DNA from: Solemya velum gill symbiont
GTDB taxonomy: Bacteria > Pseudomonadota > Gammaproteobacteria > Chromatiales > Chromatiaceae
DNA: 64,000 nt
Direction of reading: 5' to 3'
Assembly: GCF_000787395.1 (NCBI RefSeq)
Contig: NZ_JRAA01000001.1
Location: 744,001-808,000 of the forward strand
Below the pieces are notes generated by a model. The model was given only the letters and a program-made list of their open reading frames with translations, did no database searches and was not told where the DNA came from. Of this stretch, positions 5,698 through 64,000 are shown in pieces; position 1 is the first letter of the stretch; each line of letters opens with the position of its first letter. A program made the position numbers and the translations under genes.

Positions 5698-6627
5698 AAC
5701 AGGCCAAATCCCACTGATACCTGCGATACCCTGGGCACCTGCCTGCCATGCCCGTTCAATGTCAGACTCACTCATACCACCTAGCGCATAAACCGGCATG
5801 GTGACATTTTCAGTCATTTGACCAAACATGTCCCAGCCCAGTGGTGCTGCATGTGGATGCGACAGCGTTCTCTGCACCGGCGAGAGTGTGACGAAATCGA
5901 CATTCAGCACAACCGCCTGCATGAGTTCTTCATGCGTATGACAAGAGGCAGCAACCATTTGGGCAGATGACAATGGACGCTGGTCGAGCGCCATCAGGTC
6001 AGCCGCGCGCAGATGCACACCGCAGCCAAGCTCATCAGCCATCCCAACCTCTTTAACCAATAGGGCAAGTTCTGTATAGCGATCCAACAGCTGTTGTGCA
6101 ATCTCGATCACTTGCGCGTGACTGTGTTCAAGCAGGCGCAGCTGTAACAGAATCAGCTCCTGCCGGGGTACTTTTGCGGCGATGAAATCAAGACGCCGCA
6201 TCAATTCAACACGATCAATACCAGGCGGAGTCACCAGGTAGCGGGAGGGCAATTCTAACGCTGTGACAATTGGCTTGTCGGCTGGAGGCAATGGATAGCG
6301 TGCAAGGGAATCAGGCTCAACCCAGGCAATCTCCTGCCCTTCCCGCCCGGACGCCTCACCGTGCCACCGATCAACAAGATGAACATCGAGCAGCACTTCA
6401 CGATCAAGATACGCATGCCTGACCTGTATCAGGGGACGGTGGGTCTCAACCAGGATGCCAAGCTCCTCGTCAATCTCGCGCTTGAGGCCATCCGCAAGGG
6501 ATTCGCCAGGTTCAAGCTTGCCGCCGGGAAATTCCCATAACCCGCCGAGATGCTTATCATCAGGGCGACGCGACAGCAAGATACGTCCTGCCTGATCACG
6601 GATAACTGCTACAGAAACATGTAGCAT
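5677..6627 (-). CDS. Nudix hydrolase (MutT-like) fused to a ThiE-like domain
   Basis: Residues 1-130 form a MutT-type Nudix domain. The Nudix box runs from G36 to I58 (GGKLEPGE, then REIDEELGI), expected to hydrolyse 8-oxo-dGTP and clean the nucleotide pool. Residues about 140-316 resemble thiamine-phosphate synthase, a TIM barrel, with GCGVHLRAADL and YALGGMSESDIERAWQAGAQGIAGISG. This fusion is common in gammaproteobacteria; whether the second domain makes thiamine phosphate is not established by sequence. It sits in the mutT position next to secA and argJ. Confidence 0.9.
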   Translation of the reverse strand: MLHVSVAVIRDQAGRILLSRRPDDKHLGGLWEFPGGKLEPGESLADGLKREIDEELGILVETHRPLIQVRHAYLDREVLLDVHLVDRWHGEASGREGQEIAWVEPDSLARYPLPPADKPIVTALELPSRYLVTPPGIDRVELMRRLDFIAAKVPRQELILLQLRLLEHSHAQVIEIAQQLLDRYTELALLVKEVGMADELGCGVHLRAADLMALDQRPLSSAQMVAASCHTHEELMQAVVLNVDFVTLSPVQRTLSHPHAAPLGWDMFGQMTENVTMPVYALGGMSESDIERAWQAGAQGIAGISGIWPVLEDALG

Positions 6628-6651
6628 GTGAATAGTGAGCGAGCGATCAAA

Positions 6652-7857
6652 TCAGCTTCGATACTCGGCATTGATCTTAACGTAGTCGAACGACAGGTCG
6701 CAGGTCAATACGAGACTACTCGCATCACCACGCCCCAGTTCAATATGAATGGTATAGGCATCCCTATCCATAACGGCTTGTCCTGCCTCCTCGGTATAAC
6801 CGGCATCACGCCCACCGCCTGACACAATCAGAACATCATCAAGCAGAATACGTACGGCATCGAGATCGAGCGCTTCAACACCCGCCCTGCCGACAGCCGC
6901 GAGGATTCGGCCCCAGTTCGGATCGCTGGCAAACATTGCCGTTTTGACTAATGGTGAATGCGCTACCGTGTAGGCAACATCCCTCGCCTCCTCAACACTT
7001 GCAGCACCGCTGACATGAATTTCGACCAGCTTGGTTGCACCTTCTCCATCCTTGACGATGGCTCTTGCGAGCTCCATGCAGACGTCGAGAACTGCGGAGC
7101 ACACGGTATTACCGGCGGAGCTTTCAAGGTCATCAACCACGACATCGCTACAGCCGGTTGCGATCAGGACGCAGGCGTCATTGGTCGAGGTATCACCATC
7201 GACAGTAATGCTGTTGAAACTTGGGGCGACCGCCTCATTGAGGCACTGCTGCAGCAACTCTTGCGGCATTCCTGCATCAGTTGCGACATAGGCAAGCATG
7301 GTTGCCATGTCCGGACGAATCATGCCAGAACCCTTTGCCATACCAGTGACTGTCACTTCGCTATCACCAACTTTGACTCTCCTGCTCACCAGCTTGGCGA
7401 CTGTATCAGTCGTCATGATAGCTTGTGACGCACGCTGCCAGCCTTCCTCTTGCAAGCCTTCAAGCAATGAAGGAACCGCTGCAGCAATTGCCTGCGTATT
7501 GAGATCTTCGCCAATTACGCCTGTTGAGAATGGTGCAACCTGGCTGAGTGCGCAGCCGGCGGCGGCTGCAAGTGACTTGCAGGATTCACGCGCTGCTCGC
7601 AGACCGTTATCGCCGGTTCCGGCATTGGCATTGCCGGAATTAACCAGCAGGTATCGCGGTGTACCAGCCTCAAGATGTTCACGCGCAACAGTTACGGGAG
7701 CAGCACAGAAGGCGTTGCGGGTAAAAACAGCAGCTATGCTGGCGTCATCAGCCAGCTCAATTGCAACCAGGTCATCGCGTCCACTGTAGCGAATACCTGC
7801 AGCAACACTTGCTAACCTGATACCTGCAACCGGGTAAACCTTGTCAGTGGCTGTCAT
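6652..7857 (-). CDS. argJ: Glutamate N-acetyltransferase / amino-acid acetyltransferase ArgJ
   Basis: Arginine biosynthesis enzyme that moves the acetyl group from N-acetylornithine to glutamate and, in bifunctional forms, also makes N-acetylglutamate from acetyl-CoA. The precursor self-cleaves before the Thr of the ATML motif, here T187 within MIRPDMATMLAYVATDA, giving alpha and beta chains. The upstream GMAKGSGMI is intact and the length of 401 residues is normal. It lies 12 bases downstream of secA and is probably co-transcribed with it. Confidence 0.96.
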   Translation of the reverse strand: MTATDKVYPVAGIRLASVAAGIRYSGRDDLVAIELADDASIAAVFTRNAFCAAPVTVAREHLEAGTPRYLLVNSGNANAGTGDNGLRAARESCKSLAAAAGCALSQVAPFSTGVIGEDLNTQAIAAAVPSLLEGLQEEGWQRASQAIMTTDTVAKLVSRRVKVGDSEVTVTGMAKGSGMIRPDMATMLAYVATDAGMPQELLQQCLNEAVAPSFNSITVDGDTSTNDACVLIATGCSDVVVDDLESSAGNTVCSAVLDVCMELARAIVKDGEGATKLVEIHVSGAASVEEARDVAYTVAHSPLVKTAMFASDPNWGRILAAVGRAGVEALDLDAVRILLDDVLIVSGGGRDAGYTEEAGQAVMDRDAYTIHIELGRGDASSLVLTCDLSFDYVKINAEYRS

Positions 7858-39479: not shown

Positions 39480-39857
39480 ATGCAAACCACAAGGAGTAGT
39501 GGAACAACAGCTGAAAACCTGGCACTGAACTACCTGCAAAAGCGGGGGCTATCTCTTGTCACGAAAAATTACAGCTGTCGCTGCGGTGAAATCGATCTCA
39601 TCATGCAGGATTCCGGGGCGCTGGTATTTATTGAAGTGCGCTACCGGAAGAGTACCCGTTTCGGGCTCCCCGAGGAGACGGTCGATAGCAGAAAACAGCG
39701 CAAGCTTATTCTCACTGCACAACGCTACCTCCAATCTGCACAGATCGATGCCGAATGCCGGTTCGACGTGATCGCTATTTCAGAAAAGAGGCCAATCAAA
39801 TGGACGCGGATTCAACTCACTAGTGCAACGGATGGGTTAATCCCGAAAAATACTTGA
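39480..39857 (+). CDS. yraN: YraN-family (UPF0102) nuclease-fold protein, C-terminus replaced by IS30 sequence
   Basis: The protein has a PD-(D/E)xK-like core (SCRCGEIDLIMQ then FIEVRYR), of uncertain function and usually next to lpoA. The ATG at 39480 was chosen; a longer frame lies inside lpoA. Native sequence ends at R110. From residue 111 the frame enters the IS30-family element and stops after 15 foreign residues (125 in all). The missing end (IHGIKNAFYIV, then stop) is readable on the far side of the element at 40868-40903, so the original protein was 121 residues. Activity of the altered protein is unknown. Confidence 0.88.
   Translation: MQTTRSSGTTAENLALNYLQKRGLSLVTKNYSCRCGEIDLIMQDSGALVFIEVRYRKSTRFGLPEETVDSRKQRKLILTAQRYLQSAQIDAECRFDVIAISEKRPIKWTRIQLTSATDGLIPKNT
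39810..39829 (+). repeat. Left inverted repeat of the IS30-family element
   Basis: ATTCAACTCACTAGTGCAAC. It pairs with the right repeat at 40850-40869, matching at 15 of 20 positions, including ATTCAA at the tip and AGTGCAAC inside. The transposase stop codon lies within it. Confidence 0.85.
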
Positions 39858-40774
39858 TTGGGCGTTTTAATGCCAAGACATTTTCGGGGACGATTGTTCA
39901 GTTTATTCATCACCTGGTTGATTTCCGCCTGAGTGATGGTTGTAAAGTCCCGATGCTTTGGGAAGTATTGGCGAATGAGTCCATTGGTGTTCTCATTCAA
40001 GCCACGTTCCCAGGAGGCATAGGGATGGGCAAAGAAGAACCTGGCACTGAGGCCTTTAGCGATGGTCTCGTGACCGGCGAATTCCTTACCATTATCTGAG
40101 GTCAGCGTGTGAACGCGGCCGGCGATGGGTTTGAGCAGTTTGAGGATAGCGCTGGTGACGTTGCTGGCGGTTTTTCTCTCCACCTTATGGATGAGCGTCA
40201 ATCGGGATTTACGCTCGGTGATTGAAACGATGGCCTGTTTGTGGCCTTTTCCGATAATGGTATCAAGTTCCCAATCACCGAAGCGTGAACGCTCATCAAC
40301 CACGGCAGGACGTTCATCGATGCTGACTCGGTTAATCAGTTGCCCTCGGCGGCTATAGCTGCCATAGCGCTTTCGACGCTGCTTCTGGCAACGCAGGTGG
40401 CGGTATAGGTTACCGCCCATGGATTTGTTCTGGAGAACGTACTGGTAAATCCACTCATGAGAGATTTGAATGTCAGCCTCATTGCACAGCCACAGGCTGA
40501 TTTGTTCCGGACTCCAGTCCTCGCGCAACAGATGCTCGACTCGCTCCCAGTGGGTAGTGGCAATACGGGGCTGGCTCTTGCTCTGACGGCGCTCTACAGA
40601 CAGCCGATGGGCCTGTTTGGGGCGATAGCCGCGCAAGCCACGGTTACGCCTCAGTTCGCGGCTGACAGTGGATTTGTGGCGCCCAAGTATCTTGGCTATC
40701 TCTGTTTGATTGTGACCTGCTTTCATCAGTGCCTGAATCTGGTATCGTTCTTCCTGGGTAAGCTGCGTGTACAT
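39812..40774 (-). CDS. IS30-family transposase
   Basis: DDE transposase of 320 residues, full length. The N-terminal helix-turn-helix (TQEERYQIQALMKAGHNQTEIAKILGRHKSTVSREL, about 5-40) binds the inverted repeats. The catalytic triad is likely in RFGDWELDTIIG, LTSDNGKEFAGHE and LNENTNGLIRQYFPK, all well kept. An AGAGGAG ribosome site precedes the ATG. The stop codon lies in the left inverted repeat. No frameshift is seen, so the element may be active. Confidence 0.95.
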   Translation of the reverse strand: MYTQLTQEERYQIQALMKAGHNQTEIAKILGRHKSTVSRELRRNRGLRGYRPKQAHRLSVERRQSKSQPRIATTHWERVEHLLREDWSPEQISLWLCNEADIQISHEWIYQYVLQNKSMGGNLYRHLRCQKQRRKRYGSYSRRGQLINRVSIDERPAVVDERSRFGDWELDTIIGKGHKQAIVSITERKSRLTLIHKVERKTASNVTSAILKLLKPIAGRVHTLTSDNGKEFAGHETIAKGLSARFFFAHPYASWERGLNENTNGLIRQYFPKHRDFTTITQAEINQVMNKLNNRPRKCLGIKTPNQVFFGINPSVALVS

Positions 40775-43235: not shown

Positions 43236-43304
43236 ACTTAAGATTTGAAGCAACGCCGCTCCATGACATCCATGTCACCGCGGCATTCACTACGTCCTGT
43301 ACAT

Positions 43305-43337
43305 AAAAAAACCGCGTCATAAAGACGCGGTTTTTTT
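43305..43337. terminator. Bidirectional intrinsic terminator
   Basis: ACCGCGTC (43311-43318), ATAAA loop, GACGCGGT (43324-43331), flanked by six A before the stem and a T-run after it, so it works on both strands. It would end the Cys-rich gene (plus) and the Fe-S carrier gene (minus). It is the clearest intrinsic terminator in the window. Confidence 0.9.
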
Positions 43338-43358
43338 ATTCTTTAGACTGACTCCGAA

Positions 43359-56413: not shown

Positions 56414-58699
56414 GTGAGATTACGCACCGTCATCCTGCTGACGCTACTGCTGTTCGCGGTCGTCCCGACACTGCTGTTTGTCGCTTTCAGCTTCCCGTTG
56501 ATGTTTGACCGGATGCAGAGTGTTTATCACCAGGCGCACCTGCAGACGCTGCGTGCCGACTTTCGTGATCTCGATGAGCACCTTGCCGGACGCCGTGAAA
56601 TGACTCGCGTCCTTGCAAAGTTGCCGGAACCAGGTGTCGTGATCGGTGCCAACTCGACAGACCAGGCTCGCATTAATGACAGCCGCCAGCGCTACACCGG
56701 CTGGGTTAACGCGGTTTTCGGTGAGCAGCTTGACGTGGTTGGTATCTCCTTCATCGACCGAGATGAGAAGAAAAGCTTCTGGCTCTCGCGTGAAACAAGC
56801 ACCTCTCCATTTTCGCAGACCCAGGTACAACCCGATCAACCTGACAGCCGCCTGTTACAGGATGCAATGGAAGCGGGCCGATCAAGAGTACTGGTTTCAC
56901 CTGTCTATACCAGTGATGATGAGCAAGGACGTCCACATCCACGCATGCACCTGGTTGCACCGATTCATGCCAATGATGAGAAAGCTGTTGCGCTTGTCAT
57001 TACCACCATTGATATCGGCGGTCTTGCCAACGCCTATCGCAGCACCCTGTGGGTCGATGTAAAAGGGCGCTATATCGGCGCAACCGAGCAGGCCGGCAAC
57101 AATGCCTTCGATGATTATGTCGGACTCGAAACACTGCTCACAGGCAATCGAATCAGTTTGTGGCAAGACCCGGACAAGGGACAGATCATCTGGATACCCA
57201 TGTTCCGCTCCGCAGACGGTGAACCTTTGTGGGTTGGTCGCGTTGTCGGCCAATCACCGTTCACCGACCTGCTGCAAAACCTGCTGGTGCGTGGACTATT
57301 GATCAGCCTTCCTGTTCTGATCGGCATCTGGTTTGTTGCACGCCGGGTCACCCGCAGCATCGATAGCATCGGTAACAGCCTGGGTCAGGGTGTACAGCGC
57401 ATCGTCTCGGACAATAGCGAGGTTAACTTTAACTGGAAACGACCGATCGAGTTGAAGGAGGTTGGTGAAAACCTCAGTCGCTTGTCGGTAACCCATGCGC
57501 GCAACCAGCGTAATCTAGTCTCTCACACGCAGGAACTGGAAGAGAGCAACCGTTTCAAGTCAGAGTTTCTTGCCAATGTTTCGCATGAACTGAAGACCCC
57601 GCTCAATTCGATCCTTGTTCTGTCGAAACTACTCAAGGAGAGTGAAGAGCTGGATAGCCAGAAGCGTGAGCAGGCCGCGGTCATCAATACTGCAGGACGT
57701 GATCTCTACCGTCTCATCGAGAACATCCTCGAATTGAGCCTGCTCGAACGCATGGAGCAATCGCCCTCTCTCGAAGAGACGGATCTCAAGCAACTCATTC
57801 TAGACACGGTCGAGTTGATGCGTCCTCAGTATGAGGAGAAATCCCTCACACTGGAGACCCGCTTTGATATCGCCTCTGTGCCGATGATTGTCACCGACAA
57901 CAACAAGCTCAAGCAGATTCTACGCAACCTGCTCGCCAATGCGCTCAAATTCACCGAGCAGGGCGGCGTCACCATCAGTGTCAACATCGATTACTCGGAA
58001 GCGTCTCACTCCCAGCCGGTTCATATCTCGGTACAGGATACCGGCATGGGCATTCCTGCAGAGGAGCAGAAACGCATTTTTGAAGCCTTTCGCCAGGCTG
58101 ACGGCTCCATCCGGCGACGCTTCGGCGGTACTGGTCTGGGCCTCAACATAAGCCAACGCCTTGCCCATATGATCGGGGGGAAAATCAGTCTCGACAGTAA
58201 ACCTGGCGAAGGTGCCCGTTTTACAATCTCCCTGCCGCTGGAGTACAGCCCCCTGATCGCACCTGACGAGGAAACAACACCTGCGGTGGAGGAACAGGCG
58301 CCTGCAGTAGTCACAGAAAAGATGCCTGATTACCAGGGAAAACATGTACTCATCATTGATGATGACGTCGACAACCTGCTGCAACTCTCGCGCATTCTTT
58401 CGCAGTGGAACATCGAGGCAATCATCGCTTCTGATGATGAGGAGATACGGGAAGCCCTTGTCGAAAACCCGGATTGCCTGCTGACATTGGTCAACCTCAA
58501 ACTTTGTGAATCGAACAAGTGTGATAGCATTCATCTGATCGAGGAACAATCGTATCAGTGCACCCTGGTCGCAATCGGTGATGAAGAACACATAGATATG
58601 TCGAGCAAGCGCTTTGAACATGTTCTGACACCGCCTTTCGACGCAGAAAAACTGAAAGAGCTGATCGATCACAAATTGCAATCAATGAAGACTGATTAA
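56414..58699 (+). CDS. Hybrid sensor histidine kinase with degenerate receiver
   Basis: Membrane kinase of 761 residues. A first helix (about 5-25), a periplasmic dCache-like sensor (about 30-285) and a second helix (about 290-315) lead to a HAMP-like linker, a HisKA domain with H391 (VSHELKTPLNSIL), and a HATPase domain with NLLANALKF, DTGMGIP and GGTGLGLNIS. The C-terminal receiver (about 638-758) keeps the acidic DDD but has Asn694 (LVNLKL) where the phosphorylated Asp belongs, and Thr-Pro-Pro in place of the conserved Lys-Pro. It starts with GTG. The next gene, six bases on, is its likely partner. Confidence 0.93.
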   Translation: MRLRTVILLTLLLFAVVPTLLFVAFSFPLMFDRMQSVYHQAHLQTLRADFRDLDEHLAGRREMTRVLAKLPEPGVVIGANSTDQARINDSRQRYTGWVNAVFGEQLDVVGISFIDRDEKKSFWLSRETSTSPFSQTQVQPDQPDSRLLQDAMEAGRSRVLVSPVYTSDDEQGRPHPRMHLVAPIHANDEKAVALVITTIDIGGLANAYRSTLWVDVKGRYIGATEQAGNNAFDDYVGLETLLTGNRISLWQDPDKGQIIWIPMFRSADGEPLWVGRVVGQSPFTDLLQNLLVRGLLISLPVLIGIWFVARRVTRSIDSIGNSLGQGVQRIVSDNSEVNFNWKRPIELKEVGENLSRLSVTHARNQRNLVSHTQELEESNRFKSEFLANVSHELKTPLNSILVLSKLLKESEELDSQKREQAAVINTAGRDLYRLIENILELSLLERMEQSPSLEETDLKQLILDTVELMRPQYEEKSLTLETRFDIASVPMIVTDNNKLKQILRNLLANALKFTEQGGVTISVNIDYSEASHSQPVHISVQDTGMGIPAEEQKRIFEAFRQADGSIRRRFGGTGLGLNISQRLAHMIGGKISLDSKPGEGARFTISLPLEYSPLIAPDEETTPAVEEQAPAVVTEKMPDYQGKHVLIIDDDVDNLLQLSRILSQWNIEAIIASDDEEIREALVENPDCLLTLVNLKLCESNKCDSIHLIEEQSYQCTLVAIGDEEHIDMSSKRFEHVLTPPFDAEKLKELIDHKLQSMKTD

Positions 58700-58704
58700 C
58701 AGGT

Positions 58705-59538
58705 ATGCCAGACCACAGTAACTTTACACTCCTGATTGTCGATGACAATGCCGCCAATCTCTACAGCCTGCGTTCCCTGATCTCAAGCCATCTGCACGCC
58801 GCTGTTATCGAGGCGGATTCGGGCAAACAGGCAATTGAAATTGCATCCGAACGGGATGATATTGACCTGATTGTTCTGGACATCCAGATGCCGGAAATGG
58901 ATGGTTTTGAAGCAGCAACACTGCTCAAGATGCGCAAAAAAACGCGCGACATCCCGATTATCTTTCTGACGGCGGCTTTCAAAACCGAGGAGTTCCAGCA
59001 ACGCGGCTATGATCTTGGCGCGGCCGACTACCTGCTCAAACCGATTGACGACAATCAGTTGATCAACAAGCTCAGCACCTATTTTCGCCTGATCGAAAAA
59101 GAGCGCAATCTGAATCGCGTACTTGAACAGAAAGTCGCTGAGCGTACCGAACAGCTTCACCTGGCCAATCAGCACCTTGAAAAAATCCTCAATACCATGG
59201 GCGAGGCACTACTGGTGCTCAACAGGGAGGGGGTCGTCACTCGCACGAACCCGGCCGCCCTTGAGATGCTCGGGTATAATGAAGATGAACTGATCGGCAT
59301 GTCGATCGGTGATATTTTTGAAGAAGAGAGCGATGAACAGGCCAAGGCGTTCTTGGGCACCTGGCTGGAGGCATTGATTCGCACCGGTGCACTCAGTGCG
59401 ATTGAGGCCGCTTTCATCACCAGCACTGAAAAACGTATCCCAATCCTTTTTTCACGCACCGCTATCAATGATAATGCCGGTGAGGTTGAAGAAATAATCT
59501 GTATAGCCAAGAATATGAGTGGCTACCACAAGCTGTAA
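58705..59538 (+). CDS. Response regulator with receiver, coiled coil and PAS domain
   Basis: A protein of 277 residues. The receiver is intact: acidic D13-D14, phosphorylation site D59 (LIVLDIQMP), FLTAAF and YLLKPID. A coiled coil of the linker type (about 130-158) and a PAS domain follow (about 158-275, ILNTMGEALLVLNREGVVTRTNP). There is no DNA-binding, GGDEF or kinase output, so it may act by protein contact, possibly back on the kinase. It is probably co-transcribed with the kinase and the ArsR-type regulator 16 bases downstream. Confidence 0.9.
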   Translation: MPDHSNFTLLIVDDNAANLYSLRSLISSHLHAAVIEADSGKQAIEIASERDDIDLIVLDIQMPEMDGFEAATLLKMRKKTRDIPIIFLTAAFKTEEFQQRGYDLGAADYLLKPIDDNQLINKLSTYFRLIEKERNLNRVLEQKVAERTEQLHLANQHLEKILNTMGEALLVLNREGVVTRTNPAALEMLGYNEDELIGMSIGDIFEEESDEQAKAFLGTWLEALIRTGALSAIEAAFITSTEKRIPILFSRTAINDNAGEVEEIICIAKNMSGYHKL

Positions 59539-59554
59539 ACAGCAGGAAATAAGC

Positions 59555-59881
59555 ATGAGTGACACAGACAATACCGACACTCCGGTCAATGAAGATGCAA
59601 CCCTGACCGCCAATGCACTCAAGGCAATGGCACACCCCCTGCGCTGGCGCATTCTCTGCACGCTTGGGGACCAGGAACTCTCTGTCGGCGAGATCGTAGA
59701 ACAAATCGGCACATCCCAGAGCAATATCTCCCAGCACCTTGACCAGTTGCGCAACAAGCACATCCTGGTCTCGCGCAAGGAGGCCAACAGAATCTACTAC
59801 CGTATTCGTAACGAGCAGCTTCTGGAACTGATCGGCACCATGCGCAATGTGCTTTGCCCGACAAATCTGAGTGACATCTAA
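59555..59881 (+). CDS. ArsR/SmtB-family regulator, BigR/SqrR-like cysteine pair
   Basis: Winged-helix repressor of 108 residues. The ATG at 59555 has an AGGA site; an upstream frame to 59519 overlaps the previous gene. The DNA-recognition helix is in GTSQSNISQHLDQLRNKHILVSRKEANRIYYRI. Cys35 (RILCTLG) and Cys101 (NVLCPTN) are 66 residues apart. That is the spacing of the redox cysteines of BigR and SqrR, which form a disulfide or polysulfide bridge on meeting persulfides. Metal-site motifs of ArsR and SmtB are absent. The gene lies upstream of an RND operon with a palindrome over its -10. Confidence 0.88.
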   Translation: MSDTDNTDTPVNEDATLTANALKAMAHPLRWRILCTLGDQELSVGEIVEQIGTSQSNISQHLDQLRNKHILVSRKEANRIYYRIRNEQLLELIGTMRNVLCPTNLSDI

Positions 59882-59939
59882 GGATAATAAACCACATTTA
59901 TTACAGGGGTATTGACATCCGCTTCATTAAAGCTTCTTA

Positions 59940-59968
59940 TTGATCTATAGATTAATTTCTACTATATT
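59940..59968 (+). promoter_or_regulatory. Promoter of the RND efflux operon
   Basis: TTGATC (59940-59945), 17 bases, TATATT (59963-59968). A second possible promoter lies just upstream: TTGACA (59912-59917), 17 bases, TCTTAT (59935-59940). The first is favoured because its -10 is covered by the palindrome at 59964-59983. Confidence 0.6.
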
Positions 59969-59983
59969 AGATTTTTCTAATAT
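59964..59983. promoter_or_regulatory. Palindromic operator over the RND -10
   Basis: ATATTAGA, TTTT, TCTAATAT: a perfect 8-4-8 dyad. It overlaps five bases of the predicted -10 and lies 21 bases before the adaptor start. AT-rich palindromes of this size are typical ArsR-family operators, so the regulator encoded 58 bases upstream of the -10 is the natural candidate. Confidence 0.7.
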
Positions 59984-60003
59984 ATATGGTCCGGAGCTCA
60001 CTG

Positions 60004-61005
60004 ATGAACAAGGTAATACTGGCTGTTACCCTATTGCTGACATCCATGGTACAGGCTGCAGAGCCGAATGCAGGTTCTGCATCGCTGGAGCTTGCCAGTG
60101 CTACGCTGGAGAGCATGCCAAATCACCAGTACCTGGATGGCACGGTAGAAGCCGTCAACAGGTCAACTGTCTCGGCGCAAACCAGCGGACAGGTTAAAGA
60201 GATTCTTGTCGACGTCGATGACTTTGTCAGCAAGGATCAGGTCATTGTTCGCCTGCATGACACCCCCCAGCGTACCGCTCTCGAACAGGCAGAAGCACAG
60301 TTCAAACAAGCCAATTCAGATCATGAACGTATTGCCAGCATTTTCAAGAAAGGCGTTGCTACTGAAGCTGAAATGGAAAAGGCAGAGACGGCACTGACCA
60401 GTACAAGGGCAGCTCTCGAAAGCGCCCAGGAGCAACTCAACTACACGGTAATCAAGGCGCCCTACACAGGCATTGTCATGCAGCGGCATGTCGAACCTGG
60501 CGAAACAGCCAGCCAGGGAACACCACTGATGACCGGTGTCTCGCTGGAAAAACTGCGTGTCAGCGTGGGTGTACCCCAGACTCTCATCAACAAGGTGCGT
60601 GAATTTGACACTGCCTTTATCCTCTCCGGTGAGGAGCCGCCCATTCCCGTTACAAAAATCACGGTATATCCCTTTGCAGACTCGACCTCAGGTACCTTCG
60701 AGGTGCGGCTCGAGCTGCCGGAAACAAAACAGCAACTCTACCCGGGTATGTTCGTCAAAACAGCATTCCTGACCGGTCAGCGCGAATTTCTGACCGTACC
60801 CACTTCAAGCATTGTCTACCGCTCAGAAGTAACAGGCATCTACGTCGTCAAGGAGTCTGGCGCTGTCTCCCTGAGGCACATCCGTGTCGGCAATCATTTT
60901 GGACAACGCACCGCGATTCTCGCTGGCCTCGAACCGGGTGAGCAGGTTGCCCTGGACCCTGTAGCTGCTGGCATCATGGCACGCCAGGCAGCGGGAAAAG
61001 AGTAA
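60004..61005 (+). CDS. RND efflux periplasmic adaptor subunit (membrane fusion protein)
   Basis: Periplasmic adaptor of 333 residues that would link the pump to an outer-membrane channel. The ATG at 60004 has a GGAG site at the right distance and a Sec signal peptide (about 1-19, MVQAA). Two biotinyl-lipoyl halves flank an alpha hairpin (about 85-140), followed by beta-barrel and membrane-proximal domains (GEPPIPVTKI, LPETKQQLYPGMFVKT). It is short compared with AcrA (about 397). It is co-transcribed with the pump, four bases away. Confidence 0.93.
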   Translation: MNKVILAVTLLLTSMVQAAEPNAGSASLELASATLESMPNHQYLDGTVEAVNRSTVSAQTSGQVKEILVDVDDFVSKDQVIVRLHDTPQRTALEQAEAQFKQANSDHERIASIFKKGVATEAEMEKAETALTSTRAALESAQEQLNYTVIKAPYTGIVMQRHVEPGETASQGTPLMTGVSLEKLRVSVGVPQTLINKVREFDTAFILSGEEPPIPVTKITVYPFADSTSGTFEVRLELPETKQQLYPGMFVKTAFLTGQREFLTVPTSSIVYRSEVTGIYVVKESGAVSLRHIRVGNHFGQRTAILAGLEPGEQVALDPVAAGIMARQAAGKE

Positions 61006-61009
61006 TAGC

Positions 61010-64000
61010 ATGAGTCAGAATCTAGGCATATCGGGCAAGACTGCAAAACGCTTTCTGACCACCGAAATCACTCCGCTGCTGGCACTGCTTGGCATTCTTC
61101 TTGGCCTGTTTGCGATCGCCGTAACACCGCGTGAGGAAGAGCCGCAAATCAATGTCACCTTTGCGAATATATTCATTCCCTTTCCCGGCGCCACTGCTGT
61201 CGAAATTGAACAACTGGTTTCGACGCCTGCAGAACAGGTTCTCTCTGAAATCGAGGGAATCGAGCATGTCTATTCGACCTCTCGCCCCGGCATGGCAATG
61301 ATCACCGTACAGTACCGGGTTGGCGAGGATCGTACCCAGGCGATTGTACGTCTCTACAACAAGGTTTTCTCAAACCAGGACTGGTTACCAAAAAATCTTG
61401 GTGTTGGCACCCCCATCATCAAGCCCAAGGGTATAGATGATGTTCCCATCGTCACTGCAACCCTCTGGTCAAGCAACCCGTCAGTTGGTGCATATGAACT
61501 CGGCCAGGTTGCGCACACCATAGAGGCAGAACTGAAACGCGTACCTGGTACACGTGACATCTACACAATTGGGGAACCGGAGCGCACGGTCAAGGTCACA
61601 CTCAATCCGCAATCCCTGTCTGGTTACGGAATTGACCTCGACGATCTGCGCAATAGCCTGCGAGCCGCCAATTCCACGGCCGACGGCATCAGCGTCACCA
61701 GCGCAAACAGAGAGCTGTTAATTCAGGCTGGCACCTTTCTCACATCAGCATCTGAACTCGGTGGGCTGGTCATCGGTATGCATGACGGGAAACCAGTTCA
61801 CCTGCAGGATATTGCAACCATCAGCGAAGGACCGGATCATCCGCAGCAGTATGTGTGGATCGGTGCAGGTCCGCAGGCAGCCTCTAACGGCCTTGACCTC
61901 AGTGGTACGCAACCGGCTGTGACAATTGCGGTGGCGAAGAAACCGGGTACCAACGCTGTGAATATTGCCAAACGAGTCATAGACCGCTTCGAAGACATGA
62001 AGGGAATCTTTATTCCTGAAGGCGTCGAGGTAACTATCACACGCAACTACGGTGAGACAGCTGATCACAAGGCACGCAAACTGATTACCAAGCTGATTTT
62101 TGCAACCCTGTCGGTCATCGGCCTGATTGTTATTGCGCTTGGCTGGCGCGAGGCACTGATTGTCGGCGGGGCAGTTGCCATTACCCTGCTGATCACCCTG
62201 TTCGCCTCATGGGCGTGGGGCTTCACCCTCAACAGGGTTTCACTCTTCGCGCTTATTTTCTCAATCGGTATTCTTGTCGATGATGCCATCGTGGTTGTAG
62301 AGAATATCCACCGCCACCTGGCGATGGGAGCAGAGAACCTTCTGGAGGCTATACCCAAGGCTGTCGATGAAGTGGGTGGGCCCACCATACTGGCTACCTT
62401 CACGGTAATCGCCGCACTGCTGCCAATGGCTTTTGTCAGTGGGCTCATGGGCCCCTACATGTCGCCGATTCCGATTAATGCCTCGATGGGCATGCTGATC
62501 TCGTTGGCCGTCGCTTTTATTATTACGCCATGGTCTGTTAACAAGGTTCTGGGTAACAGTCATCACGCTCATGCTGTTGCCGACGAGTCACAGGAACACA
62601 AGCTGACGCCCTTCTTTGCACGAATCATGTCACCTTTTCTGGATGACTCCCGCGGTCGTGCAAACCGCTGGAAACTGCTGATAGCCATCCTGCTGTTGAT
62701 CGCAGCTTCTGTCTCGCTGGGCTTCTTCAAGCTCGTCGTACTGAAAATGCTGCCATTCGACAACAAGTCCGAGTTCCAGGTTGTTCTCGACATGCCGGAG
62801 GGAACTGCACTTGAACAGACCACGCGCGTTCTCAGCGAAATAGGCGACTTTATCGCTACCGTACCAGAGGTAACTAACTACCAGGTCTATGCGGGTACTG
62901 CGTCACCGATCGGTTTCAATGGACTGGTGCGCCAGTATTATCTCAGGGAGGGTGCCCACCTTGGTGACATCCAGGTCAACCTGGTCGACAAGAGTGAACG
63001 CGATCGTAAAAGCCACGAGATCGCCCGCTCGGTTCGCGAGCCTGTACAGGCTATCGCACGTCAATTTAACGGTAATGCGAAAATTGTCGAGGTACCACCC
63101 GGGCCACCGGTGATGTCACCATTGGTTGCCGAAATTTACGGTGTCGATTATGCCGGTCAGATCAGGACCGCCAAGGATGTACGCACTCATTTTGAGTCAA
63201 CTGCAGATATTGTCGATGTCGACGATATGATTGAGACACCGTCTGAAAAACGCATCATTATTATCGATCGCGCCAAGGCTGCTCGCCTCGGCATTGCACA
63301 GAGCAGTGTCGCGGCAGCGCTTGCCACCGTACTTGATGGTGAAGACGTGACTTATATGCACGGCGCCAACCTCAAGTACTCTGTACCTATCCGGCTCGAG
63401 TACAGCGAGGCTGACAAGGCGAATCTTGATGAGGTGATGTCGTTGAAAGTCCGCAGCCAGAGTGGCGCCCTGGTGCCCATTTCCGAGATCACCACGGTTG
63501 TCAGTGGCGCACGCGAGTTCACCATCTACCATAAGGACCTGCTGCCGGTCGTCTATGTTACCGGTGATATGGCGGGTGATTTAGACAGCCCGCTATACGG
63601 CCTGTTTGATATTGCTGGAAAAATTGATGAGCATGACGAATTTGAACAGTGGTACCTGACGCAGCCTGACAATCCCTATAACTACAGCCTCAAGTGGGAT
63701 GGGGAATGGCAGGTCACCTATGAGACTTTCCGCGACATGGGCGCTGCCTATGCTGTTGGCCTGGTTCTGATTTACCTGCTGGTGGTCGCACAGTTCCGTT
63801 CCTACCTTGTGCCACTGGTCATCATGGCGCCGATACCTCTGACCATTATCGGCATCATGCCGGGTCACGTGATAGCACAGGCACAGTTTACTGCGACCTC
63901 TATGATCGGCATGATCGCTTTGGCCGGTATCATCGTGCGCAACTCGATACTGCTGGTTGACTTTATCAATCAGCAGGTCCGGGAAGGTGAGGATTTCAGG
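61010..64000 (+). CDS. RND efflux pump permease subunit (partial, runs off right edge)
   Basis: Inner-membrane proton-driven pump; 997 codons are in the window and the frame is open at the edge. It begins with helix TM1 (LLALLGILLGLFAI) and the FPGATAVEIEQLVSTPAEQVL porter motif. The proton-relay pair is D424-D425 in TM4 (GILVDDAIVVVENIHRH), equivalent to AcrB D407-D408. TM11-12 follow near 950-990 (AGIIVRNSILLVDFI). PREEEPQI after TM1 is typical of the wider HAE1/HME-like group. Substrate cannot be told; only the tail is missing. No outer-membrane channel gene is seen inside the window. Confidence 0.93.
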   Translation, partial: MSQNLGISGKTAKRFLTTEITPLLALLGILLGLFAIAVTPREEEPQINVTFANIFIPFPGATAVEIEQLVSTPAEQVLSEIEGIEHVYSTSRPGMAMITVQYRVGEDRTQAIVRLYNKVFSNQDWLPKNLGVGTPIIKPKGIDDVPIVTATLWSSNPSVGAYELGQVAHTIEAELKRVPGTRDIYTIGEPERTVKVTLNPQSLSGYGIDLDDLRNSLRAANSTADGISVTSANRELLIQAGTFLTSASELGGLVIGMHDGKPVHLQDIATISEGPDHPQQYVWIGAGPQAASNGLDLSGTQPAVTIAVAKKPGTNAVNIAKRVIDRFEDMKGIFIPEGVEVTITRNYGETADHKARKLITKLIFATLSVIGLIVIALGWREALIVGGAVAITLLITLFASWAWGFTLNRVSLFALIFSIGILVDDAIVVVENIHRHLAMGAENLLEAIPKAVDEVGGPTILATFTVIAALLPMAFVSGLMGPYMSPIPINASMGMLISLAVAFIITPWSVNKVLGNSHHAHAVADESQEHKLTPFFARIMSPFLDDSRGRANRWKLLIAILLLIAASVSLGFFKLVVLKMLPFDNKSEFQVVLDMPEGTALEQTTRVLSEIGDFIATVPEVTNYQVYAGTASPIGFNGLVRQYYLREGAHLGDIQVNLVDKSERDRKSHEIARSVREPVQAIARQFNGNAKIVEVPPGPPVMSPLVAEIYGVDYAGQIRTAKDVRTHFESTADIVDVDDMIETPSEKRIIIIDRAKAARLGIAQSSVAAALATVLDGEDVTYMHGANLKYSVPIRLEYSEADKANLDEVMSLKVRSQSGALVPISEITTVVSGAREFTIYHKDLLPVVYVTGDMAGDLDSPLYGLFDIAGKIDEHDEFEQWYLTQPDNPYNYSLKWDGEWQVTYETFRDMGAAYAVGLVLIYLLVVAQFRSYLVPLVIMAPIPLTIIGIMPGHVIAQAQFTATSMIGMIALAGIIVRNSILLVDFINQQVREGEDFR

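Follow-up and report, generated by a model that had tools for sequence, protein, structure and literature searches.

In the gill symbiont of Solemya velum, an RND efflux operon lies directly downstream of the gene for a two-cysteine ArsR-family regulator, and between the two stands a perfect palindrome whose core, ATTAG-N6-CTAAT, recurs before orthologous pump operons well beyond the genus and before genes of sulfur oxidation. We consider it probable that this ArsR protein, or a paralog encoded elsewhere in the genome, represses the adaptor-RND operon at ATTAG-N6-CTAAT, and that bridging of its cysteine pair by sulfane sulfur derepresses the pump together with sulfur genes. On the grounds of sequence comparison, the protein, its cysteine pair, the operator, the conservation of this operator and, in another family, its location with a two-cysteine ArsR gene on one side and the pump on the other can be regarded as established.

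The Regulator, the Pump, and the Palindrome Between Them

The whole stretch of DNA analysed here, called the window, is 64,000 nucleotides long and corresponds to bases 744001-808000 of contig C1 in a 2.70-Mb genome of 10 contigs. The features that concern us lie at its end:

56414-58699, + strand: histidine kinase (HisKA 2.1e-15, HATPase_c 4.7e-29), first gene of the HK-REC/PAS-ArsR unit
58705-59538, + strand: response-regulator receiver and PAS protein, REC-PAS (Response_reg 1.8e-26, PAS_9 7e-13)
59555-59881, + strand: two-cysteine ArsR-family regulator of 108 aa (Pfam HTH_5 1.7e-11)
59940-59968, + strand: putative sigma-70 promoter of the pump operon, TTGATC-17-TATATT (consensus scan, 9/12 matches)
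59963-59984, no strand assigned: candidate operator, palindrome TATATTAGA-TTTT-TCTAATATA (9-4-9; core ATTAG-N6-CTAAT at 59966-59981)
60004-61005, + strand: RND periplasmic adaptor subunit (TIGR01730 3.4e-59, above its cut-off; HlyD_D23 1.9e-18)
61010-64000, + strand: RND permease, extending beyond the window end (ACR_tran 1.9e-141)

The gaps between histidine kinase and REC-PAS (5 nt) and between REC-PAS and ArsR (16 nt) are so short that the three genes probably form one transcription unit. The RND operon that the preliminary description had placed downstream of the palindrome is present as adaptor and permease. The nearest solved relatives of the permease are multidrug pumps of the HAE-1 type, including MexK, CmeB, MdtB and AcrB, the motif VDDAIVVVEN in TM4 is presumably of the same type, and the score on the CusA/CzcA model falls below its cut-off (219 vs 701 bits); with an ACR_tran permease and an adaptor, and nearer to HAE-1 than to heavy-metal pumps, the system classifies as an RND multidrug (HAE-1) pump. 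Within the final 10 kb of the window, none of the neighbouring ORFs could be recognised as sqr- or pdo-like. Farther upstream, window positions 39812-40774 (- strand) hold what we take to be an IS30-like transposase gene, with a near-same protein sequence elsewhere in the genome (L125), and a perfect 16-bp stem followed by a T run at 43303-43339 is probably a transcription terminator.

The palindrome is perfect, as had been claimed, and each of its arms is one base longer than in the 8-4-8 arrangement first given, so that it reads 9-4-9. When the 122-nt intergenic stretch was dinucleotide-shuffled 5000 times, palindromes with arms of at least 9 and a gap of 0-10 arose in 0.9% of the shuffles. 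The left arm carries the -10 of TTGATC-17-TATATT, which makes the proposed overlap with the -10 of the RND operon plausible at 9 of 12 consensus positions. In a search of the genome for further copies, proposed at the same time, TATTAGA-N4-TCTAATA is found a single time in the 2.7 Mb, and the core occurs exactly at eight places, i.e., before the pump, a SoeA-like gene, NirB, DUF302, a RimK-like gene and a family-less protein, near the start of a SulP transporter, and at one place without a clear gene. Within one mismatch the core is found once in the window, where 0.66 occurrences are expected by chance, so this rarity is no evidence in itself and the weight of the site comes from other genomes. 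Nor are one-mismatch sites in excess in the symbiont genome (40 vs 49 for the reversed-motif control), and hence no regulon list at one mismatch is claimed for it.

A Two-Cysteine Regulator Without Classical Metal Sites

Both the spacing of 66 residues between Cys35 and Cys101 and the lack of metal-binding motifs, noted in the preliminary description, were borne out: these are the sole cysteines of ORF 59555-59881, and histidines occur only at positions 27, 61 and 69. Classical metal sites of the ArsR/SmtB family are either a cysteine motif in alpha3 or a His/Asp site in alpha5, and a protein with neither a cysteine at the alpha3 position nor a histidine in the C-terminal helix lacks both. The cysteine pair at spacing 66 is kept in 79 of 80 ArsR homologs, the 80th being truncated by a contig end. 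The regulator of the Solemya elarraichensis gill symbiont is identical to that of the window, and the named relatives with homologs include Sedimenticola, Candidatus Thiodiazotropha, Thiocapsa and Allochromatium, all of them sulfur oxidisers.

The HTH_5 match and Foldseek agree on a winged-helix fold of the ArsR type. In the AlphaFold model (mean pLDDT 77.5) Cys35 lies within helix 28-37 and Cys101 just past helix 87-100, and the top Foldseek matches are HlyU, NolR, YgaV, SqrR and BigR, with SmtB ranking beside BigR. Among solved proteins, phmmer finds HlyU (1.3e-16), YgaV (1.7e-16), BigR (2.8e-16), SqrR (2e-11), SmtB (7.8e-11) and CzrA (3e-6), and NolR is again among the nearest. That the regulator stands nearer to the RSS group than to the metal sensors is thus shown by HlyU, YgaV and BigR only, since SqrR and SmtB score about alike and SmtB stands beside BigR by fold. 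The label of a BigR/SqrR-like sensor can be kept in part: the nearest solved relatives and the cysteine pair argue for it, whereas the score on the NCBIfam BigR equivalog model NF040642 misses the cut-off (74 vs 155 bits).

That the protein senses a metal or metalloid and the pump exports metal is very improbable. The generic metalloregulator model of NCBIfam is indeed exceeded (87 vs 55 bits), and SmtB is almost level with SqrR by sequence and with BigR by fold; against this reading stand the missing alpha3 cysteines and alpha5 histidine, the low CusA/CzcA score of the permease and the multidrug pumps as its closest solved relatives, and it was rejected on these grounds. It is somewhat less remote, yet still unlikely, that the dithiol is a general thiol or peroxide switch of the RexT kind and not a sensor of sulfane sulfur, as sequence alone does not give ligand specificity and a cysteine pair as such cannot separate disulfide from polysulfide chemistry. 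However, the nearest relatives by sequence and by fold are RSS-type proteins, several genes with the site in front of them belong to the sulfur genes of sulfur oxidisers, and peroxide sensors form a separate network cluster (PMC10509353).

The Site at Orthologous Pump Promoters

In gene order the pump does not behave as a conserved partner of the regulator. A REC-PAS gene stands directly 5' of ArsR in 30 of 30 loci (own locus included), a set that reaches only 1.5 kb, and adaptor and RND genes follow in 2 of the 30, both from Solemya symbionts, the only genomes with the pump directly downstream of a window-type ArsR; the idea of a conserved ArsR-pump pair was rejected accordingly. The link was at first seen as a local accident of the genus, a view that was reversed by pump promoters in other genomes. 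The proposed link of regulator and pump is partly supported: the pump directly follows a window-type ArsR in Solemya symbionts alone and the conserved partners are REC-PAS and histidine kinase, while the palindrome is conserved at the pump beyond the genus.

A permease match at E 1e-200 was found in 39 of 55 genomes, 31 of them at an identity of at least 54%, and 30 loci were taken, of which two without an adaptor (L160, L162) were left out. In the resulting 28 promoters, with start codons set by script, ATTAG-N6-CTAAT within one mismatch occurs 17 times (0.27 expected from dinucleotide shuffles) and exactly eight times (0.005 expected), counts that are not independent because the genomes are related; when the symbiont genome is excluded, 16 of 27 remain. 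Conservation follows the palindrome, arm columns being identical in 14-17 of the 17 sites and spacer columns in at most 12 of 17, and a TTG at a -35-like distance accompanies 11 of 16 orthologous pump promoters (1.5 expected). The other 11 of the 28 have no site within one mismatch; three of these have one at two mismatches, and one, L148, stops at a contig edge and was counted as a miss, the adaptor of the same genome on another contig (L231) having an exact site. Exact sites outside the 28 also precede adaptors of G001 (L008, L038) and G021 (L211).

In four relatives a pump ortholog lies near an ArsR gene with the site before the adaptor, exact in L047, with one mismatch in L046 and L050 and with two in L113; in the first three the pump is one or a few genes away from a window-type ArsR. 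Across 995 kb of ArsR-centred loci four exact sites were found, three of them at a pump promoter, against one for the reversed motif.

ArsR and Pump Loci in Other Lineages

A second and more distant arrangement strengthens the connection. The pump is found at E 1e-200 in 12 of 40 relatives of genome G050, and the regions of all 12 were examined. Nine of these loci, all of family f18, have an ArsR gene with a cysteine pair at spacing 66 divergent from the pump operon. Between ArsR and pump, a site within one mismatch is present in seven of the nine by script (0.03 expected, reversed motif 0), and in nine of nine once L313 and L314, whose intergenic stretches had been cut by spurious small ORFs, were re-read. 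Outside the nine f18 loci are L315, which is at a contig edge, L307, with no ArsR hit and no site within one mismatch, and L317, with an ArsR lacking the cysteine pair and likewise no such site. In eight of the nine f18 loci a small YgaP-like membrane protein, recognised by reading of the translations and by Pfam on L309 only, precedes the adaptor. The pump locus of G050 itself contains a LysR-type gene besides the divergent ArsR. With these loci and the 17 of 28 orthologous promoters, conservation of the palindrome before the same pump extends well beyond the genus.

In Aeromonas caviae (L366), a two-cysteine ArsR gene and an SQR-like gene point away from each other, with two one-mismatch sites between them; downstream of ArsR come YeeE/YedE-like and DUF6691 genes and then the adaptor and the RND permease. 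The locus is unannotated in its record, and the family matches are of unequal quality: weak for SQR (70 bits, cut-off 525) and for the YeeE/YedE type (20.7 bits, cut-off 400), strong for DUF6691 (144 bits). The record that contains it, NZ_AP026896.1, is labelled a 'plasmid', but at a length of 4.94 Mb it is probably a chromosome. PigS of Serratia, an ArsR of the RSS group, is reportedly associated with pmp (YeeE/YedE) genes and is not known to go with an RND pump; the Aeromonas locus resembles that system in its ArsR and, as its weak matches suggest, in YeeE/YedE-type genes.

In Vibrio sp. HDW18, a pump 55% identical to that of the window lies beside a DUF2892 gene, with neither an ArsR hit nor a site within one mismatch at the locus. 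This pump may be an ortholog of VexM, whose gene would lie near the BigR gene VCA0642. VexLM of Vibrio cholerae is an RND pump on the small chromosome that had no substrate in the tests reviewed (PMC10225521).

These loci bear on the rather improbable reading that the palindrome is owned by another transcription factor and ArsR is a chance neighbour. Direct binding by ArsR rests on inference, and no one-mismatch site precedes the own unit of either ArsR type in the family of the Solemya symbiont; such a reading would nevertheless leave aside the site between divergent two-cysteine ArsR and pump in nine of nine f18 loci with such an ArsR, and the two sites between the SQR-like gene and ArsR in Aeromonas.

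Conserved Partners of the Regulator and a Paralog as Possible Alternative Binder

The HK, REC-PAS and ArsR genes (56414-59881) form a unit conserved across the family. REC-PAS, at more than 50% identity, precedes ArsR in 53 of 54 named or own loci, the exception beginning at a contig edge, and its identity is about 64-70% among the relatives' loci. An ORF of more than 700 aa lies upstream of ArsR in 45 loci, and many relatives gave partial upstream matches to the histidine kinase, whose identity, where reported, was 27-48% beyond the genus. As the Pfam hits of REC-PAS include no DNA-binding domain, ArsR may be the output of this protein.

The genome encodes an ArsR paralog (G000:C1:1173020) that is 59% identical and has the same recognition-helix sequence, TSQSNISQHL. 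Its gene (L005, about 6079-7318, - strand) stands directly before rhodanese and secB genes, followed by gpsA. The unit is divergent from a phosphoglycerate mutase-like gene, and a similar order is seen in many relatives. A third ArsR-type gene of the genome (L006, 7329-7997) encodes 222 aa with a rhodanese-like C-terminal part, judged by reading of the translation. Within one mismatch, the site was found before 0 of 45 histidine-kinase genes and 0 of 28 paralog-ArsR genes, so that clear autoregulation through it is not seen; within two mismatches, 13 of the 28 paralog-ArsR promoters have it (4.1 expected), a count made without a reversed-motif control.

It is a serious possibility, although one that we rate below an even chance, that the paralog is the main binder in trans and that the window ArsR, drawn into the HK/REC-PAS unit, has other targets or a role in fine adjustment only. 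The shared recognition helix, the adjacent rhodanese gene and the above-chance count at two mismatches before its own genes would fit such a role. The genomes whose best ArsR match is paralog-like, at only 55-60% identity (G042, G047, G052, G054), keep the site at the pump, and in Candidatus Gallionella acididurans (L113) a paralog-like ArsR stands directly before adaptor and RND genes with a two-mismatch site. On the other side, the pump is directly downstream of the window ArsR in both Solemya symbionts and close to a window-type ArsR in L046, L047 and L050.

The Same Site Before Sulfur-Oxidation Genes

In the 34 genomes of the family (G000-G033), at least 88 exact core sites were counted, whereas the reversed motif yielded at least 31, of which a single genome contributes 10. 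Among the matches listed, 78 exact sites in 77 loci were examined, 73 of these loci having a candidate ORF. The genes recurrent downstream of sites among the matches listed are those for the pump, sulfur-globule-like secreted proteins, QmoA/HdrA-like, SoeA-like, kinase-like, thioredoxin-like and YgaP-TM-like proteins, and many other sites among the same matches have no clear gene or no sulfur-related gene. Two of these names are our own assumption: the secreted proteins are presumably sulfur-globule proteins, a name given without a family model, and the molybdopterin oxidoreductase-type genes are taken to be SoeA-like. Family scans of ten downstream examples returned molybdopterin oxidoreductase, HdrA-like, NirB, SulP, thioredoxin-like, YgaP-TM and DUF302 proteins, with SQR weakly matched and one protein without a family.

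The gene dsrA, which was not picked from site hits, has a site within one mismatch in 6 of 30 promoters, the symbiont's own included (expected 0.18, reversed motif 0), and within two mismatches in 16 of 30 (expected 3.7, reversed 4). For the soeA-like genes the corresponding counts are 8 of 29 (expected 0.27, reversed 0) and 22 of 29 (expected 3.0, reversed 7), for the globule-like genes 8 of 29 (expected 0.38, reversed 0) and 15 of 29 (expected 4.2, reversed 7), one locus each of an original 30 (L246 and L264) being omitted as too short, and for the qmoA-like genes 4 of 17 (expected 0.22, reversed 0) and 6 of 17 (expected 2.4, reversed 3). These full soeA, globule and qmoA counts are biased upward, since the genes were picked from exact sites seen in some of the same genomes. 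When the discovery genomes are held out (G000, G001 and G008 for soeA-like; G005, G017, G021 and G023 for globule-like; G006, G020 and G024 for qmoA-like), one-mismatch sites remain in 5 of 26 soeA-like, 4 of 25 globule-like and 1 of 14 qmoA-like promoters, and the last figure makes the case for qmoA weak.

In the Solemya velum symbiont, one-mismatch sites precede dsrA and two identical globule-like genes; a third globule-like gene, the best-matching one, has a site with two mismatches. The two identical genes (L293, 694-1113, and L294, 665-1084, - strand) occupy separate positions in the genome, each preceded by ATTAGAATTTACTGAT at a distance of about 90 nt, and their identity and partly common upstream sequence point to a probable recent duplication.

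Since sulfur-oxidation genes are likewise preceded by this site more often than expected, the pump seems to belong to a sulfur regulon. Membership in a sulfane-sulfur regulon is, in our judgement of the sequence evidence, the most likely interpretation, and the distribution of the site suggests one sulfur-controlled gene set common to the pump and the genes of sulfur oxidation.

Proposed Mechanism and Known Systems

Binding by ArsR, repression, sulfane sulfur as the signal and the choice of binder among the paralogs are what we infer from these comparisons. In its reduced, dithiol form, a dimer of ArsR, or of the 59%-identical paralog, would bind ATTAG-N6-CTAAT, cover the -10 of the adaptor-RND operon and so block RNA polymerase, which would leave the pump operon repressed. 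During oxidation of sulfide or thiosulfate, sulfane sulfur (persulfide or polysulfide) would rise, Cys35 and Cys101 would become bridged by sulfur, and the dimer would leave the DNA. The pump would then be made together with other site-bearing genes of the same genome or of relatives, namely soeA-like, dsr and sulfur-globule-like genes.

A wider reading, to which we give slightly less than an even chance, is that ATTAG-N6-CTAAT serves as operator for a whole set of sulfur-oxidation genes in purple sulfur bacteria and thiotrophic symbionts, in which a sulfane-sulfur-responsive ArsR would repress dsr, soe, globule and perhaps qmo genes along with the RND pump and let them go on the appearance of sulfane sulfur. 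A further signal would come in through histidine kinase and REC-PAS, which in this family share the operon with ArsR, and the cargo of the pump would be a sulfur compound or something formed on the side when sulfur is oxidised.

The proposed chemistry has precedents. In SqrR- and SoxR-type proteins, sulfane sulfur bridges two cysteines and the repressor is released (PMC10451225), and the site described for SqrR is ATTC-N8-GAAT (PMC9774250), the half-site geometry of which is that of ATTA-N8-TAAT in the window. Like SqrR, BigR, YgaV and HlyU, the regulator combines an ArsR fold, two cysteines that lie 66 residues apart in or at helices 2 and 5, and a palindrome over a promoter. Unlike them, it is the third gene of an HK-REC/PAS-ArsR unit, its site reads ATTAG-N6-CTAAT, and its likely targets are the pump and the dsr, soe-like and globule-like genes. 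In Hyphomicrobium denitrificans, SoxR and sHdrR are two-cysteine ArsR repressors of sulfur-oxidation genes that are released by sulfane sulfur (PMC10451225, PMC12423496). They resemble the window regulator in being two-cysteine ArsR proteins, and RND pumps are among the neighbours of such regulators; their targets, however, are alphaproteobacterial sox and shdr genes, and a conserved operator or a link to dsr, soe or sulfur-globule genes is not described in the accessible parts of these papers.

The preliminary description set an RND pump apart from the sulfide detoxification genes that BigR and SqrR usually control; a 2025 survey had already reported RND pump genes near two-cysteine ArsR regulators (PMC12423496). 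In a literature search covering mostly titles and abstracts, with few subscription papers, no description was found of the operator ATTAG-N6-CTAAT or of its occurrence upstream of dsr, soe or globule genes.

Little is known about how sulfur oxidisers sense their own sulfur compounds (PMC10451225). With a 16-bp site defined, two candidate sensors named and likely targets listed, the question can be put to the test in cultured relatives, for example Allochromatium or Sedimenticola. For the Solemya velum symbiont, in whose genome paper AcrAB-TolC-type pumps were suggested to expel host-derived antimicrobials (PMC4287430), membership in a sulfur-controlled gene set would provide a physiological setting for an RND pump otherwise annotated as a multidrug exporter.
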